Of a stretch of DNA of 64,000 nt, positions 2,852 to 63,322 are shown in pieces. Each line of letters begins with the position of its first letter. The stretch's first letter is position 1. The notes below the pieces were generated by a model that worked only from the letters and a program-made list of their open reading frames with translations, ran no database searches and was not told the origin of the DNA. This DNA is from a virus. The stretch covers positions 1-64,000 of the IMG/VR virus record IMGVR_UViG_3300028563_000016; one strand, written 5' to 3'. A program made the translations under genes and the position numbers.

Positions 2852-3598
2852 TCAATAATCGTTTTCATCCTCTTCCTTTTGTTCCATATATAATCGCTTT
2901 ATTACGGCAATCGCAGTGATGAGCTGCTTGTGTGACAAATTCGTCAAGTCTTTCATGTAAAGACTCATTGCCGCTTTGCTCACAATGTCTATTTCGTTCT
3001 TGTTTTGAAACAACGTTATGATGCCATTCAACGTTGAAAGTTCATTTTCGGTGCTCACATTTTCACGTATTACATGTAATCTATCTAAAATTTCCTGCGA
3101 AGCAAACTGATCTTCAAGTTGCTCGTCCTGAGCCTGTACTGAACACTTTTCTTCAAGAATGTGATAGTCTGAAAGAGTTAATGATTCAGGATCGTCTATT
3201 GACAAAAACTTCTTTGTTGACTGCGACTTTTGCTTCGTGCGAATTATCAACCAATTTTTTGCGCACACGTTGAAGTACGAAAATGCTGCACATCCTCGAG
3301 TGGGATCAAACTTATTCAAAGTTTCAAACAGAAAGCACACGCAGTCATTTTTCAATGTCTCATACGTGTCATGAGCCGACGTGAACTTGTGTATATTTAT
3401 CAAATTTTCGACAAGCTTCTCAAAAGCAGGAGCAATCTTTGTGACGTACGTCTTATTTCGCACGTTGAAGTCGTCTTCAGTCTGATACTCGACGACCGCA
3501 GCTTGCGTGTCTGCGTTGAAGTACATTCGAGACTGACGTGCCTTTTCACGCTCTTCAGGAGTTCCAGTTGTTGGCTTGCGTCTTCGTCGTTGTACCAT
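2852..3598 (-). CDS. Late-transcription sigma factor, T4 gp55-like
   Basis: 248 residues. Residues 97-118 read FDPTRG..AFSYFNVCAKNW, a clear sigma-70 region 2 signature: the FDP..G..F..Y core that binds the RNA polymerase clamp and melts the -10 element. No region 4 helix-turn-helix is visible, which is the organisation of T4 gp55 (185 residues), the sigma that reads late promoters of the TATAAATA type. The first 40 residues are basic and the C terminus acidic. The protein should direct host RNA polymerase to late promoters in this genome. It is the first gene of a minus-strand operon with the baseplate spike. A separate small protein at 43741 has a region-4-like fold and may complement it. 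Confidence 0.8.
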   Translation of the reverse strand: MVQRRRRKPTTGTPEEREKARQSRMYFNADTQAAVVEYQTEDDFNVRNKTYVTKIAPAFEKLVENLINIHKFTSAHDTYETLKNDCVCFLFETLNKFDPTRGCAAFSYFNVCAKNWLIIRTKQKSQSTKKFLSIDDPESLTLSDYHILEEKCSVQAQDEQLEDQFASQEILDRLHVIRENVSTENELSTLNGIITLFQNKNEIDIVSKAAMSLYMKDLTNLSHKQLITAIAVIKRLYMEQKEEDENDY

Positions 3599-8283: not shown

Positions 8284-8538
8284 ATGAAACGTTTTTTGTT
8301 TGTGTTCATGTTTTTACTTTCATCATGCTCACCAATGATATCTTGGCATGATAAGCAAATGGTAGCCACAATGCAGGTTGCTGGTAAATCATTAAGTTGT
8401 TTTAATTCACAATGTTGCTTTCCATACAAACACCACAAGGACGTGAAAAATGTACACGTCATGGTGTGTTCAGAACAACAACTTGACAAAGATGGTTTTC
8501 ACCAACTGAACGTTTCAACAAAAATATACTTTCGTTAG
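8284..8538 (+). CDS. Small lipoprotein
   Basis: 84 residues from ATG 8284; an in-frame TTG at 8272 is less likely because GAGGTG at 8274-8279 is the ribosome site for 8284. The N terminus MKRFLFVFMFLLSSCSP is a textbook lipoprotein signal with lipobox L-S-S-C. The mature part is Cys- and His-containing (C-x5-CC, HKDVKNVHVMVCSE). It would be lipid-anchored in the host envelope. No family is recognised; superinfection exclusion or spanin-like roles are possible but unproven. The end overlaps the convergent lipoprotein gene by four bases. Confidence 0.65.
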   Translation: MKRFLFVFMFLLSSCSPMISWHDKQMVATMQVAGKSLSCFNSQCCFPYKHHKDVKNVHVMVCSEQQLDKDGFHQLNVSTKIYFR

Positions 8539-9146: not shown

Positions 9147-9401
9147 TTATAAGAATATCACCAATCCAAGTATATCGATTAATCCTGCAACGGGCATCAG
9201 CAAATATGCTATTATTGGATGAAAACACCAAAATAACGTCAACACTCCAAATACAACACCATGTATCATGAATTGTCGACCCACGCTTCTCCCAAAGTCT
9301 GACATCATCTCTTTTGCGAAAACATTATAACCACATATCCACATCACGATTGCGATACCAGAGACAAGAAAAAACACTTTTCCAAAAATTGACAACTTCA
9401 T
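9147..9401 (-). CDS. Small integral membrane protein
   Basis: 84 residues with hydrophobic segments at about 8-28, 46-64 and 66-84, linked by a polar FAKEMMSDFGRSVGRQ stretch. Two to three membrane spans are likely. No family is recognised. The ATG lies inside a perfect hairpin (9397-9423), implying translational control. The neighbours are exported proteins on both sides. Confidence 0.6.
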   Translation of the reverse strand: MKLSIFGKVFFLVSGIAIVMWICGYNVFAKEMMSDFGRSVGRQFMIHGVVFGVLTLFWCFHPIIAYLLMPVAGLIDILGLVIFL

Positions 9402-9423
9402 GATAGAATCAATCTATCATAAA
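9397..9423 (-). promoter_or_regulatory. Hairpin covering the start codon of the 9147-9401 gene
   Basis: On the minus strand TTTATGATAGA, loop TTGAT, TCTATCATGAA pairs over eleven positions with one T-G. The ATG (9399-9401) is in the 3' arm, so initiation should be blocked when the hairpin forms. This parallels the start-codon hairpins at 531, 59476 and 62031. Confidence 0.5.
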
Positions 9424-9443
9424 ATGCAACTTTTTACACTTTC

Positions 9444-31959: not shown

Positions 31960-32914
31960 CACGTTTTCTATACGCCCTTCCAACCATTTTTTCCCAATCA
32001 CGATGTTCAGGTGGTACCAATTCTAAATTTTTATCTCGTATAGCTTCCATCAACTTTGGTTTCATCCCAACGGCATTTGACATGAAAACCATCGCAGAGA
32101 GGTCTTTCGGGAAACAATGGCCGCGGCCTCCGGGAATGCCATTTTCACCAGGTACATTCATGTGTGTGCCACCAAGACGAGGATCAAGCTTTGCGTATTC
32201 AACGATTTTATCGTAATCAACGTTATATCCTAACTCATCAAGTTTATTTGCTATTTGCCACAGTTCACAACTCAATACAACACGAGCCATGAGTTGAATA
32301 TTTGTGAAATACTTTACAAATTCAGCCGTTGAACTACTTGTCTTGATAATTGGTACGTTTGGAAATGCGGTTTGAAATAATTGTTTAACAACATTGATAT
32401 AAGGACGAGGCCCACCGAGAATTATGCGATTTTGATTTCGCATGTCGTCAACAGCGTTCTTTTCTGTTAAAAATTCAGGGCTGAAGCAAATTCGAAGTCC
32501 AGTATTTTCATACTTTTTATTCCACTTTTCAGTACTTCCAGGAGGAATTGTACTTTTTACAACAACAATATGATTTCCTGGGATGACGGCGAATTCTTCA
32601 AGAACACTTTCAACAATTGAAAGATCACATTCGCCGTCATCCCACATTGGCGTTGGAAGACAACAAAAATAAATTCCCGAAAACCCTTCCTTCGGTGAAC
32701 AGCTCTCGACTAACTCTCGAATGTTTTCAACGTTTCTATAATCAGGAGCTCCTGAACAATCAGTAAAATATCGTATTTGTGCTTTTTCAGCACCCACGGC
32801 ACACTTGCCTGCTTTGTCGTAGTTATAAACAGTCAGTCCACGCTCAACTAATACTTGAGCAAGTGAACCACCCACAAAGCCCGCACCTATCACTGCAACC
32901 GATGTCTTTGTCAT
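31952..32914 (-). CDS. UDP-glucose/GDP-mannose 6-dehydrogenase-like enzyme
   Basis: 320 residues. The Rossmann motif VAVIGAGFVGGSLAQ is at 6-20, VVVKSTIPPGSTEKW and FSPEFLTEKNAVDD are family blocks, the central dimerisation helix follows, and GRGHCFPKDLSAM near residue 260 contains the catalytic Cys. Members oxidise the C6 hydroxyl of UDP-glucose, UDP-N-acetylmannosamine or GDP-mannose to the acid with NAD+. The usual C-terminal UDP-binding domain is largely missing (family length 390-450), so it is a short version. It should supply an acidic sugar donor for the glycosyltransferases of this window. Confidence 0.8.
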   Translation of the reverse strand: MTKTSVAVIGAGFVGGSLAQVLVERGLTVYNYDKAGKCAVGAEKAQIRYFTDCSGAPDYRNVENIRELVESCSPKEGFSGIYFCCLPTPMWDDGECDLSIVESVLEEFAVIPGNHIVVVKSTIPPGSTEKWNKKYENTGLRICFSPEFLTEKNAVDDMRNQNRIILGGPRPYINVVKQLFQTAFPNVPIIKTSSSTAEFVKYFTNIQLMARVVLSCELWQIANKLDELGYNVDYDKIVEYAKLDPRLGGTHMNVPGENGIPGGRGHCFPKDLSAMVFMSNAVGMKPKLMEAIRDKNLELVPPEHRDWEKMVGRAYRKRDV

Positions 32915-59475: not shown

Positions 59476-59541
59476 CGTCGAAGTGATGTGAGACACAATT
59501 TTCCGTCGCGACTTACTTATATCATCAATGTCACTTCAACG
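59476..59541 (+). promoter_or_regulatory. Start-codon hairpin with TTACTTATATC in the loop
   Basis: CGTCGAAGTGATGT (59476-59489) can pair with ATGTCACTTCAACG (59528-59541): 13 of 14 positions, two of them G-U. The 3' arm begins with the ATG of the 834-residue structural gene. The 38-base loop contains CTTACTTATATC, a promoter-like element of the type seen at 33830, 46250 and 62042. A transcript initiated at that element would not contain the 5' arm. Confidence 0.55.
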
Positions 59542-62032
59542 ATTATCGCCACAGGACATCGAGGTAGTCTCAGTTCAGACAAACCCGATTAGGCACTATG
59601 TTTCGAGTTCAACTGGCACTTCTGGCTTTGTGCAGTTGTTTCCACGTCAGACGCACATGTTGAAAGATATTTCACCATCAAGCGTATATGTTGACTTGAC
59701 ACATGATGACGCCGATTTATCGTCTTTATACAATTTTGCTCAGCGCCTAGGACAAGGAGCTGTTTTAAATTCAGGCAGTTATCTTGCAAATGACATTGCA
59801 AAATCATTCACTCGCGCGCTAAATCAATATCTTGATGGCGTTACTGCACAAATAACGTCTGAAAGAAACAGTAAGGTGTTGGATGTTGTGAGATTTACTC
59901 CCGGCGTTGTTTATTCACAAGACACTGTCAGCAAATCAATTGTCAAGAATTTATTGAACAACTATTACAACACAACGTATCCGACTGCACACTGGGGCTT
60001 TACAAATTACAATACATTGAATTTTTTCACCGCCTCGTCAGTTCCATCGTCAAGCGTGTTGATATATCCTAACGTCGATACAGAACACTCTGAATTTCAT
60101 GAAGGATACGTTAGTGGAACGTACACACCGTCTGGATCGTTTAGTTTTGATTTTTATATCAATCCACGTTATAAACAATCTGACACAGACGTTGATTATC
60201 ATGCAGGAACAATTTTGCATCTTTCGTCGACATATGCCTTATCATTAATTTCTGGTTCTTTACGAGACGAAAATGGAAAAGCAGCAGCATTTAGATTACA
60301 ACTTCAATTGAGTCACAGTGCGGACGTAAAACCATCACTTGCGAAGCAAGGAAACTATCCACAAGACTTAGTTTTTTTGTCAGATGACAACGGTTTACTA
60401 TACAACAATTGGCATCATGTTATTGTAAGATGGGGAACAAATAACTTTTACGGTGGAACGGGATCTTTTAACATTGACGCAGTAAATGCGGGAACGTTTT
60501 GTGTCCCAAGTGGAACTATAACTCCCAAACTGATGATTCCGGAACCTGACGTATTGTGTGTCGGAAACTATTTTGATGGTGTTGGTTTTGGTGATGCAGC
60601 TGCAAGTTTATTTTTTGCGACAAATCCTGCAACGAGAGATGGATTACAAATTTTAGTCAATGATGCTGGTGCACATGAGGCTCCCGTTGATTATGCGTTT
60701 GATCATCCGCTTAACGCTGAGTTACATGATTTGTCAATGCGCAGAAGGTATATGTCTGACACTGACATTGCATTTTCTGCGTCTAAACCACCCACGTCGT
60801 TAGACAAGTCATTCATGTTGTACATCCCTCCATTTTTTAGGCCAACGTCACCAATAAGAAAGTTTGTGGGTGATCATGGTGGAATATTACAAACACCATT
60901 TTTTGAAGTTGATGGAACAACGATCGATCCGTTCAACGTTGCAATGTCATTCGGAGTCGATGGACATTACATGAATATTGAGAATTATGTTCATGACTTT
61001 GCAAGTGATCTTGATCCACTGTTACATCACATGACTGGATCTGCAATCACAACGACAACTGACGCGTTGTTTGCAAACGACTTTCTCTACGCGCAACCGT
61101 TTGTAGTGCGTAGAAATACATTTATAATGCCATGTGATGACGGAAATTTCGTTCCTAGTTTTGAATTATTAATGAGTGAAAGCAAGACATATAACAAGTT
61201 TGTTGATGACTTGGGACAGACTGACTTTACGATGGTGAACTTAGATAACCTTGTAACTCCCGCGTCATTACTTTTTGGAAGTGACTTTGATCAAGGAAAC
61301 GTTGCTGACACAATTGCATACGCAATGGCGGATGATGCGATCGGTTTTTCACCTGAAAATGTAGCCGGGCCATTCGGTCCTGCGTATGCGAACTATGCGA
61401 GATCATTGGCAATATCAATTGCATCAGGTGAGTTTGAGCCTGGCATTCAAGCAACTGCGCCATTGACAATATACCAACGTACCCGCGATCCATCTTCAAA
61501 CCAAGTAACGTTCTTTAGCATAAGTAACATATTTTACGGTGATTCAATTAAACCACAAAGTTTTTATTTGAACGACGATAACTTGTCGGGCTCTGCTGGT
61601 ACAATTTCAATCACGTTGCGAGACGACGGGTACGGAAATTTGTATCGTGCTGATTGTTTGACAAAACAAGCAACGTGGAACTCGTGCGGAAATTTGTATT
61701 ACAATGAGGGTTTGGCTGTCGTCAAGAATCCTTCGTTGAACTTCTTTGGAAAAGAAAAGTACACGATTGATTTGCGAGGAACTCACAACGTTCACGTAAT
61801 GAAGATTGACGTGTTTGCACAGGCAGGTCAGATCAATTCATCTAGCAATCCGACTTATCTAAGTATCCCACCAAGTCTAATGGCGAACGAGTGGGACGAC
61901 ACGTTTGTGCAACTTTCAGGAATTAACTTTCATGATGACAACATGAACGTTGTCGCAAAGACATCATTTGCACAGCCCATAGTAAAAAGAGCGAGCGATC
62001 GACTCTGCATTCGTACAAAGTTTGATTTCTGA
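59528..62032 (+). CDS. Large virion structural protein with LamG-like region
   Basis: 834 residues. The first 130 residues are mixed (TGTSGFVQLFPRQTHMLKDI), then a concanavalin/LamG-like domain at about 170-430 (SFSFDFYINPRY, ILHLSSTYALSLISGSL, NNWHHVIVRWGTNNFYGGTG), the W.HV..R(W/Y) pattern being typical. The C-terminal half is beta-rich. The end MNVVAKTSFAQPIVK then LCIRTKFDF matches the end of the protein at 57749. Tail fibre, baseplate or capsid decoration are possible. Its start lies in a predicted hairpin. Confidence 0.65.
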   Translation: MSLQRLSPQDIEVVSVQTNPIRHYVSSSTGTSGFVQLFPRQTHMLKDISPSSVYVDLTHDDADLSSLYNFAQRLGQGAVLNSGSYLANDIAKSFTRALNQYLDGVTAQITSERNSKVLDVVRFTPGVVYSQDTVSKSIVKNLLNNYYNTTYPTAHWGFTNYNTLNFFTASSVPSSSVLIYPNVDTEHSEFHEGYVSGTYTPSGSFSFDFYINPRYKQSDTDVDYHAGTILHLSSTYALSLISGSLRDENGKAAAFRLQLQLSHSADVKPSLAKQGNYPQDLVFLSDDNGLLYNNWHHVIVRWGTNNFYGGTGSFNIDAVNAGTFCVPSGTITPKLMIPEPDVLCVGNYFDGVGFGDAAASLFFATNPATRDGLQILVNDAGAHEAPVDYAFDHPLNAELHDLSMRRRYMSDTDIAFSASKPPTSLDKSFMLYIPPFFRPTSPIRKFVGDHGGILQTPFFEVDGTTIDPFNVAMSFGVDGHYMNIENYVHDFASDLDPLLHHMTGSAITTTTDALFANDFLYAQPFVVRRNTFIMPCDDGNFVPSFELLMSESKTYNKFVDDLGQTDFTMVNLDNLVTPASLLFGSDFDQGNVADTIAYAMADDAIGFSPENVAGPFGPAYANYARSLAISIASGEFEPGIQATAPLTIYQRTRDPSSNQVTFFSISNIFYGDSIKPQSFYLNDDNLSGSAGTISITLRDDGYGNLYRADCLTKQATWNSCGNLYYNEGLAVVKNPSLNFFGKEKYTIDLRGTHNVHVMKIDVFAQAGQINSSSNPTYLSIPPSLMANEWDDTFVQLSGINFHDDNMNVVAKTSFAQPIVKRASDRLCIRTKFDF

Positions 62033-62074
62033 AATTTCATGATATTTATCGACAGGAGAACATCATGAAATTTC
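62031..62074 (+). promoter_or_regulatory. 13-bp perfect hairpin over the start codon, with TATTTATC and Shine-Dalgarno in the loop
   Basis: GAAATTTCATGAT (62031-62043) is exactly complementary to ATCATGAAATTTC (62062-62074), which contains the ATG at 62065. The 18-base loop holds ATTTATC and AGGAG. A late start within or after GATATTTATC (62041-62050) removes the 5' arm and frees the site, whereas read-through RNA from the structural gene would be untranslatable. The arrangement equals that known for T4 genes e, soc and 49. Confidence 0.65.
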
Positions 62075-62553
62075 TACCCGTTTTAGCACTTATCATTGCA
62101 ACTTCATTTACGCCTGCTTGTGCTATGTTGACGCAGCCACAAACGCCTGTGACGACTATTACAAACGCTGAAACAATTGCTCGCACTACGCTACAAAACG
62201 CACAAATTGGGTGGCTTTTTGTCGTGCCGCTCATCACTGTTTCACATCCTGATAAAGTTCAAGACTTGACTACAAAATACTACGCCGCGGTGCAAAAGGC
62301 GTCTGACGCGCTTGATACTCTTGATAAAGTAAAAGCTTCTCTCACGAGCGGTGTCACGGTAACTATCGACTTGAACACTGCGTTGAAAGCGGAGTCGCTT
62401 GCAATCGTTGAGGTGATGAACATAATTGCTGAAGCAAAAGCTGCATCAGGAAAAGCAAAAGCTACGCAAAATAGTCATGCACAAAATCTTGGTGTGCCTG
62501 GCTATGACAACGCACTTGCAGGGTCTGATCAACTTCGTTCAATGGTGAAGTGA
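62065..62553 (+). CDS. Exported protein/lipoprotein
   Basis: 162 residues. The signal MKFLPVLALIIATSFTPACA has either a signal peptidase I site after A-C-A or a lipobox (T-P-A-C). A second hydrophobic stretch (IGWLFVVPLITVS) at about 48-60 is followed by a helical domain (YYAAVQKASDALDTLDKVKA) of coiled-coil type. An o-spanin- or exclusion-type envelope protein is conceivable. Strong AGGAG, but the start is hidden in a perfect hairpin. The stop TGA abuts the next gene's GTG. Confidence 0.6.
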   Translation: MKFLPVLALIIATSFTPACAMLTQPQTPVTTITNAETIARTTLQNAQIGWLFVVPLITVSHPDKVQDLTTKYYAAVQKASDALDTLDKVKASLTSGVTVTIDLNTALKAESLAIVEVMNIIAEAKAASGKAKATQNSHAQNLGVPGYDNALAGSDQLRSMVK

Positions 62554-62973
62554 GTGCCTCGCAGACGTCGCAAAAAGCGTTATCACACCGGAATTCATTT
62601 AAGCGATAAATTGACAAGTAAAATGAAATACCGCTCTGGGTGGGAGTGTACTTTTGCATGTTTGCTCGACAATGATCCGACAGTAAAATTATATAGCTAC
62701 GAAAGTATCGTCATTCCTTACGTGTCAAACAAGACTACACACAAGGTGCGACGATACTTTCCTGACTTTTTCATTACGTATGTCGATGGTTCACGTGTTC
62801 TCGTTGAAATAAAACCACGACGAAAATTGGTTCAAAAGACGGTGCAGAAAAAGCTCGCTGCCGCTAAAAGTTGGTGTTCGTGTAACGACGTGACACTCAG
62901 GATCATTACTGAAGTTGAGTTAAAGGAATATGAACTGTCACAAAAAGAAGCGTCAGAATTGAAATCAATCTAA
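62554..62973 (+). CDS. TnsA-like / T4 gp4-like head-completion nuclease
   Basis: 139 residues from GTG 62554, directly after the upstream stop. A basic start (RRRRKKRYHTGIH) leads to YRSGWECTFACLLDNDPTV, SYESIVIPYVS, RRYFPDFFITY and VLVEIKPRRKL: the E...(S)YE....IPY....R.Y.PDF......EIKP order of TnsA-type PD-(D/E)xK nucleases, as in the T4 gp4/gp50 head-completion protein (about 150 residues). The following K..A...WC segment also fits. It probably trims or protects DNA ends at the portal during head completion. Convergent with a small gene (9-base overlap). Confidence 0.75.
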   Translation: MPRRRRKKRYHTGIHLSDKLTSKMKYRSGWECTFACLLDNDPTVKLYSYESIVIPYVSNKTTHKVRRYFPDFFITYVDGSRVLVEIKPRRKLVQKTVQKKLAAAKSWCSCNDVTLRIITEVELKEYELSQKEASELKSI

Positions 62974-63270
62974 AAACTTGACAATGTTTCTTGCGATTGT
63001 TTCTATGTCACTAATTTCGTTAACAACGGGAACGTATGATTTGTCTTCACGTTGTTTTATTAGATCGATGTAATAACAATTTGATCCGGTGTTGTTGCGA
63101 ACTAACGTAACGAGTTTATTGTCATTTTTTTGTAAATCAACAATTGTCTTTTTGTTCTCACCCACTGCAACGTTGACTACGGAAACAGGAGACATTTTTT
63201 GAACTCGCCAAACAATGTTTATGATTGTTATGTCGGTGTAATAAATGCTTTGGAGCTCAACGTTGTTCAT
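62965..63270 (-). CDS. Small hypothetical protein
   Basis: 101 residues, alternating beta (YYTDITIINIVWRVQKMSPV; VVNVAVGENKKTIVDLQ), possibly a small beta barrel or sandwich, ending in an acidic helix (ISDIETIARNIVKFLD). No family is recognised. The ribosome site AGGAGAA is good but is paired in a predicted hairpin (63278-63299). It overlaps the head-completion gene by nine bases. Confidence 0.5.
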   Translation of the reverse strand: MNNVELQSIYYTDITIINIVWRVQKMSPVSVVNVAVGENKKTIVDLQKNDNKLVTLVRNNTGSNCYYIDLIKQREDKSYVPVVNEISDIETIARNIVKFLD

Positions 63271-63277
63271 GAAAAGT

Positions 63278-63299
63278 TCTCCTGTTGATAAATAGGAGA
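63278..63299 (-). promoter_or_regulatory. Shine-Dalgarno-masking hairpin with TATTTATC in the loop
   Basis: On the minus strand TCTCCT, loop ATTTATCAAC, AGGAGA gives a perfect 6-bp stem that hides the AGGAG ribosome site of the gene at 63270. CTATTTATCAACAGGAGAA closely resembles GATATTTATCGACAGGAGAA at 62041-62060, in the same orientation to the gene. Confidence 0.5.
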
Positions 63300-63322
63300 G
63301 AATTAATTGTATACAATTTTAA

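Follow-up and report, generated by a model that had tools for sequence, protein, structure and literature searches.

A predicted lipoprotein gene of this phage begins inside a perfect 13-bp hairpin that has a putative late promoter between its arms, and we put at about even the chances that this is a new, independent late switch of the T4 gene e kind, built on a different late promoter. The window, the whole stretch of DNA that was analysed, comprises 64,000 bases of the 75,723-base virus record IMGVR_UViG_3300028563_000016; where genomes are compared, this phage is represented by the entire record, including the part beyond the window. In such a switch, RNA read in from upstream would contain both arms, pair the AUG of the lipoprotein gene and block initiation, while late RNA starting at the TATTTAT between the arms would be free of the 5' arm, leaving the Shine-Dalgarno sequence and AUG exposed for translation. 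Transcription would begin inside the loop, at about 62054-62056. The existence and timing of the read-through RNA, and the repression of its translation, are what we infer. The locus contains the following features.

59528-62032, +: conserved upstream ORF of 834 aa, probably structural, with its own TACTTAT at 59514
62031-62043, +: 5' arm, GAAATTTCATGAT, its first bases shared with the TGA stop of the preceding ORF
62043-62049, +: TATTTAT, an instance of the clade motif TAYTTAT and putative -10 element of a gp55-type late promoter
62054-62058, +: Shine-Dalgarno sequence AGGAG, in the loop, conserved in the closest relative (contig G002)
62062-62074, +: 3' arm, ATCATGAAATTTC, containing the ATG, conserved in G002
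62065-62553, +: the gene proposed to be controlled, encoding a 162-aa predicted lipoprotein
62554-62973, +: downstream gene for a head-closure/TnsA-like nuclease, T4 gp4-like (phrog_218, E 1e-25)

The start hairpin and the lipoprotein gene

The arms GAAATTTCATGAT and ATCATGAAATTTC are complementary at 13 of 13 positions and enclose an 18-base loop, ATTTATCGACAGGAGAAC. The preliminary description, in which this hairpin hides the start codon and its arms enclose the Shine-Dalgarno sequence, was accurate on both points, with the ATG at 62065 within the 3' arm and AGGAG in the loop. The 5' arm shares its first two bases with the stop codon of the 834-aa ORF (TGA, 62030-62032), and the promoter-like element TATTTATC (62043-62050) has as its first base the last base of that arm. 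RNA folding agreed with the hairpin: the 54-base local RNA has a predicted energy of -16.1 kcal/mol (z -4.8), a stability equalled by 0 of 200 shuffles, and folding over 101 nt gave a z of -2.0. AUG pairing is predicted to exceed 0.99 from 15 to 37 C, and the Shine-Dalgarno sequence to be only partly paired, through weak pairs within the loop. Of the two elements that a gene e-type leader may sequester in read-through RNA, start codon and Shine-Dalgarno sequence, it is the AUG that would be hidden here, by its predicted pairing. The proposed late form of the RNA, which would have no 5' arm, is predicted to be nearly unstructured at about -1.9 to -3.6 kcal/mol, and an RNA assumed to start at 62054 gave -3.6 kcal/mol (z 0.45).

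Perfect arms of at least 13 bp with a loop of 3-40 were seen three times in the window, against 0.12 expected under a first-order Markov model of the window. Such a 3' arm holding a start codon was expected 0.0017 times in the window, and 0 of 20,000 random upstreams placed before real starts reached 13 bp, all of these being post hoc figures for the start hairpin. Random coincidence of the 13-bp pairing is very unlikely, and such low figures for pairing may be compatible with a mutational origin without function. Rfam gave no match at gathering scores, and the 16-mer TTATCRACAGGAGAAC had at least 118 matches across IMG/VR, which is uninformative at that collection size. The longest perfect inverted repeat in the window is 16 bp long (TGGGATGACGGCGAAT, 32579-32644) and lies inside a UDP-glucose dehydrogenase-like coding region. 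No tRNA was found in the window; a tRNA-like sequence with a CTTGATTGCTAATCAAG arm occurs outside it, at the start of the primase ORF (L007 ~8410-8480, record ~66,410-66,480).

The lipoprotein has, by sequence, a signal peptide and the lipobox TPAC, and its mature part is conserved. A structure model of moderate quality (mean pLDDT 72) shows four predicted helices. A family search returned no significant match, and a fold search with the model returned nothing under E 0.05. Copies of the gene among viral and genome contigs were confined to four contigs, the same ones throughout, and named phages yielded no DNA or protein relatives of the locus. A role in lysis or superinfection would be speculative.

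The TAYTTAT motif and a gp55-like protein

A late-promoter-like element had been described within the hairpin. The element does match a motif of this clade, TAYTTAT, but it is not the T4 element: TATTTATC has three mismatches to the T4 consensus TATAAATA and so does not fit that consensus for a gp55-type promoter. As a late promoter of this phage TATAAATA itself was rejected, showing no enrichment in the window (2 matches against 3.4 expected), as was its antisense reading GATAAATA, with 5 matches against 3.2 expected. In a search of upstream regions, TATTTAT and TACTTAT were both over-represented ahead of starts. TAYTTAT lies within 40 nt before 9 of 94 starts, against 0.56 expected, and occurs before starts 9 times in sense and once in antisense orientation; most of its non-coding copies are 9-24 nt ahead of a start codon. 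The copies and the candidate protein reader are listed here.

59514, 46253, 39370(-), 539 and 63294(-): TAYTTAT copies in the window, putative late promoters
71788, 72203 and 73895 (record coordinates, in L007): further TAYTTAT copies, putative late promoters
2852-3598, -: gp55-like late sigma homologue of 248 aa, candidate reader of TAYTTAT

The relatives compared for the motif were IMG/VR contigs G001, G002, G003, G010 and G012. TAYTTAT is kept in them, with C/T swaps, at genes orthologous to those at 551, 39358(-), 46264, 63270(-) and 71797, the 834-aa gene and terL. At the lipoprotein site this phage has TATTTATCGACAGGAG where G002 has TACTTATCGACAGGAG, and TACTTAT stands at the same place in G002. 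Alone, the 248-aa protein matches the late sigma family phrog_234 weakly (E 0.008), and all 11 of its 11 homologues match the same family, with a best E of 2e-6.

Since it is enriched before starts, is kept at orthologues and is accompanied by a gp55-like homologue, TAYTTAT is most likely the late promoter of this phage group. A single element just before late genes is found together with a phage late sigma, the element preceding terL, the 834-aa gene and others, and the sigma being the gp55-like homologue. Between the hairpin arms the putative late promoter, identified by motif only, stands in sense orientation. The position of many TAYTTAT copies 9-15 nt from a start codon suggests that the late RNAs are leaderless or nearly so. 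Distant gp55-like homologues, annotated there as hypothetical, occur in Flavobacterium phage immuto and Microcystis phage Mel-JY01, and in these two phages TAYTTAT shows no excess over the reversed pattern. The promoter half of our interpretation is, as far as sequence can tell, well supported; the hairpin half is the weaker one.

The hairpin in relatives and competing explanations

The lipoprotein of the closest relative, G002 (L003), is 90% identical, and the promoter, the Shine-Dalgarno sequence, the 3' arm and TACTTATCGACAGGAGAACATCATGAAATTTC are kept; the 5' arm is missing, and the G002 leader has almost no predicted structure (-2.4 kcal/mol, z +1.9). G001 and G003 have a different leader with no 5' arm. 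The arm is thus missing from all readable relatives (G001, G002 and G003) and covariation support for this hairpin is therefore nil. A structure kept in close relatives would be a mark of function, although it does not strictly define a gene e-type switch. In G002 and G001 an extra ORF, absent from the window, separates the 834-aa and lipoprotein genes.

G002, L137 4821-5303: extra ORF with a ribbon-helix-helix-like N-terminus (by eye)
G001, L136 2709-3179, -: extra ORF with a ribbon-helix-helix-like N-terminus (by eye)

In G002 this ORF is flanked by two copies of TACTTAT, which could have mediated its loss. As the relatives have no 5' arm, the start hairpin exists in one genome, where both genes adjoin, and its role is therefore no more than likely. 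A hairpin confined to one genome is compatible with a device required only when the two genes adjoin and also with a by-product of recent origin.

The main rival to a late switch is accordingly a lineage-specific by-product of mutation, recent and with no selected role, in which quasi-palindrome template switching made the 5' arm as a copy of the 3' arm, or loss of the gene in between left it behind. We regard this as somewhat unlikely. It would account for a perfect arm seen only in this lineage and for the ribbon-helix-helix-type ORF that stands between the genes in G002 and G001, where the 5' arm is missing; compared by eye with the G002 junction CTGAATTACTTATC, this phage is also longer by about 8-9 bases, whose sequence is the start region in reverse complement. 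The arm is, however, in precisely the position that conceals the start and encloses a real promoter, and comparable layouts recur at terL and at the gene starting at 63270, both of which speak against a by-product.

The timing of the read-through bears on a second alternative. Because the upstream 834-aa gene carries its own conserved TACTTAT late motif, read-through need not be early, and transcripts running on into the lipoprotein gene may be late ones too. The hairpin could then act in late infection as a translational coupling or read-through filter: lipoprotein synthesis would depend on ribosomes that end at the TGA at 62030-62032 and cover the 5' arm, which would set the ratio of the two proteins and not the timing. 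The overlap of the stop codon with the arm and the late motif of the upstream gene both accord with this, but T4 gene e likewise has the upstream stop adjoining its 5' arm, and repression of the read-through RNA occurs there all the same (PMC3014915), and we judge coupling to be improbable. Less probable again is some other DNA or RNA element: the hairpin could end the transcript of the 834-aa gene or stabilise its 3' end, or it could be a palindromic operator covering the promoter. In G001 and G002, too, a hairpin comes immediately after the 834-aa gene, and there it overlaps the TACTTAT of the next gene. Here, however, no U tract is present, just 4 of the 13 pairs are GC, the site was not called terminator-like, and the arms reach into coding sequence, all of which makes an element of this kind highly improbable.

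Comparable sites and the T4 switches

Three further layouts with a promoter in a hairpin were found, at terL, 63270(-) and 551. In this phage, G002 and G010, the GTG start of terL is in the 3' arm and TAYTTAT is in or beside the loop, with predicted energies of -13.6, -12.3 and -10.3 kcal/mol, respectively. The other two are located as follows.

63274-63300, -: second promoter-in-hairpin, TCTCCT-ATTTATCAAC-AGGAGA, ahead of the gene whose start is 63270(-), with the Shine-Dalgarno sequence in the 3' arm
522-555, +: third promoter-in-hairpin, around the TATTTAT at 539, whose 3' arm contains the ATG (551)

The 63270(-) sequences of three lineages folded into hairpins of -7.6 (this phage), -12.1 (G001) and -16.8 kcal/mol (G002). 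The stem at 551 has -15.3 kcal/mol in this phage; inspection by eye suggested covariation of this stem in G012, an idea discarded because G012 folds differently. A separate hairpin at 9385-9425(-), ATGATAGA-TTGAT-TCTATCAT, which is without TAYTTAT, has -19.4 kcal/mol with flanks, and the gene at 9147-9401(-) has its start codon within the 3' arm of this hairpin.

The start hairpin and weaker cases in the window had been taken as signs of a general timing device. A test of start accessibility showed no tendency of late genes to hide their starts. By duplex complementarity, the late genes of this phage had a mean rank of 0.15, compared with 0.50 for 86 controls (p 5e-4), and the shift was smaller in the relatives (mean about 0.40); the same test on T4, used as a yardstick, gave 0.34-0.38 for late genes as compared with 0.49 (p 0.006-0.04) and placed gene e among the leading late genes. 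The mean local energy was unshifted, with an excess of extremes (8 of 24, not independent, against 8.6% of controls). What stands of the earlier claim is that some late genes of this phage, terL, 63270 and 551 among them, have such hairpins; the tests of a general rule across the genome disagree.

In T4 gene e, long transcripts form an inhibitory structure that lowers lysozyme synthesis 100-fold, and late transcripts are without the 5' part (PMC3014915). The same hairpin logic had been attributed to soc, 49 and I-TevI, and these genes are indeed so described (PMC3014915); I-TevII, I-TevIII, segB and Aeh1 mobE are additional cases (PMC2988022). Folded in the same way, the gene e leader, whose loop contains TATAAATA, gave -14.9 kcal/mol (z -4.6), a predicted stability like the -16.1 kcal/mol found here, and the upstream stop (nudE, 67035) immediately precedes its 5' arm. 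Both loci have an upstream stop beside the 5' arm, a late promoter in the loop, then the Shine-Dalgarno sequence, and the start codon at or in the 3' arm. They differ in that a shorter stem hides both the Shine-Dalgarno sequence and the start in gene e, whereas the stem here is 13 bp with the Shine-Dalgarno sequence mostly in the loop; in the promoter, TATAAATA as against TAYTTAT; and in the gene, lysozyme as against a predicted lipoprotein. Similar leaders recur in close T4-type phages, though not in every phage with gene e (PMC3014915), unlike the present hairpin, which is not kept in relatives. In soc, 49, I-TevI, segB and Aeh1 mobE (PMC3014915, PMC2988022) the Shine-Dalgarno sequence or start is likewise sequestered in RNA from upstream and the late promoter placed so that late RNA omits the 5' strand; several of these cases are proven by experiment, whereas the one here is predicted. 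The gp55-dependent T4 late promoters (PMC2988020) share with TAYTTAT a single AT-rich, -10-like element near the start, with no -35 element, and an encoded gp55-like protein, but they use TATAAATA, while TAYTTAT is often 9-15 nt from the start codon. The genome had been called unrelated to T4; in late transcription it is not wholly unrelated, because it has a gp55-like sigma homologue and T4-type terL and head-closure genes.

A broader proposal, which we consider rather unlikely, is that a clade with a diverged gp55-type sigma and TAYTTAT independently put its promoter inside hairpins that hide the start or Shine-Dalgarno sequence at several late genes, among them terL; the arms would differ in sequence from lineage to lineage and still pair. 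Gating of this kind would then be recurrent in phages with replication-coupled late transcription. If the switch at the lipoprotein gene is real, the logic of T4 gene e arose outside the close relatives of T4, with a different promoter sequence and type of gene, and the generality of promoter-in-hairpin gating would become countable across phages with gp55-like factors. The hairpin aside, TAYTTAT and the gp55-like homologue make a concrete prediction of a new class of late promoter, in a phage group found here as metagenome contigs only.
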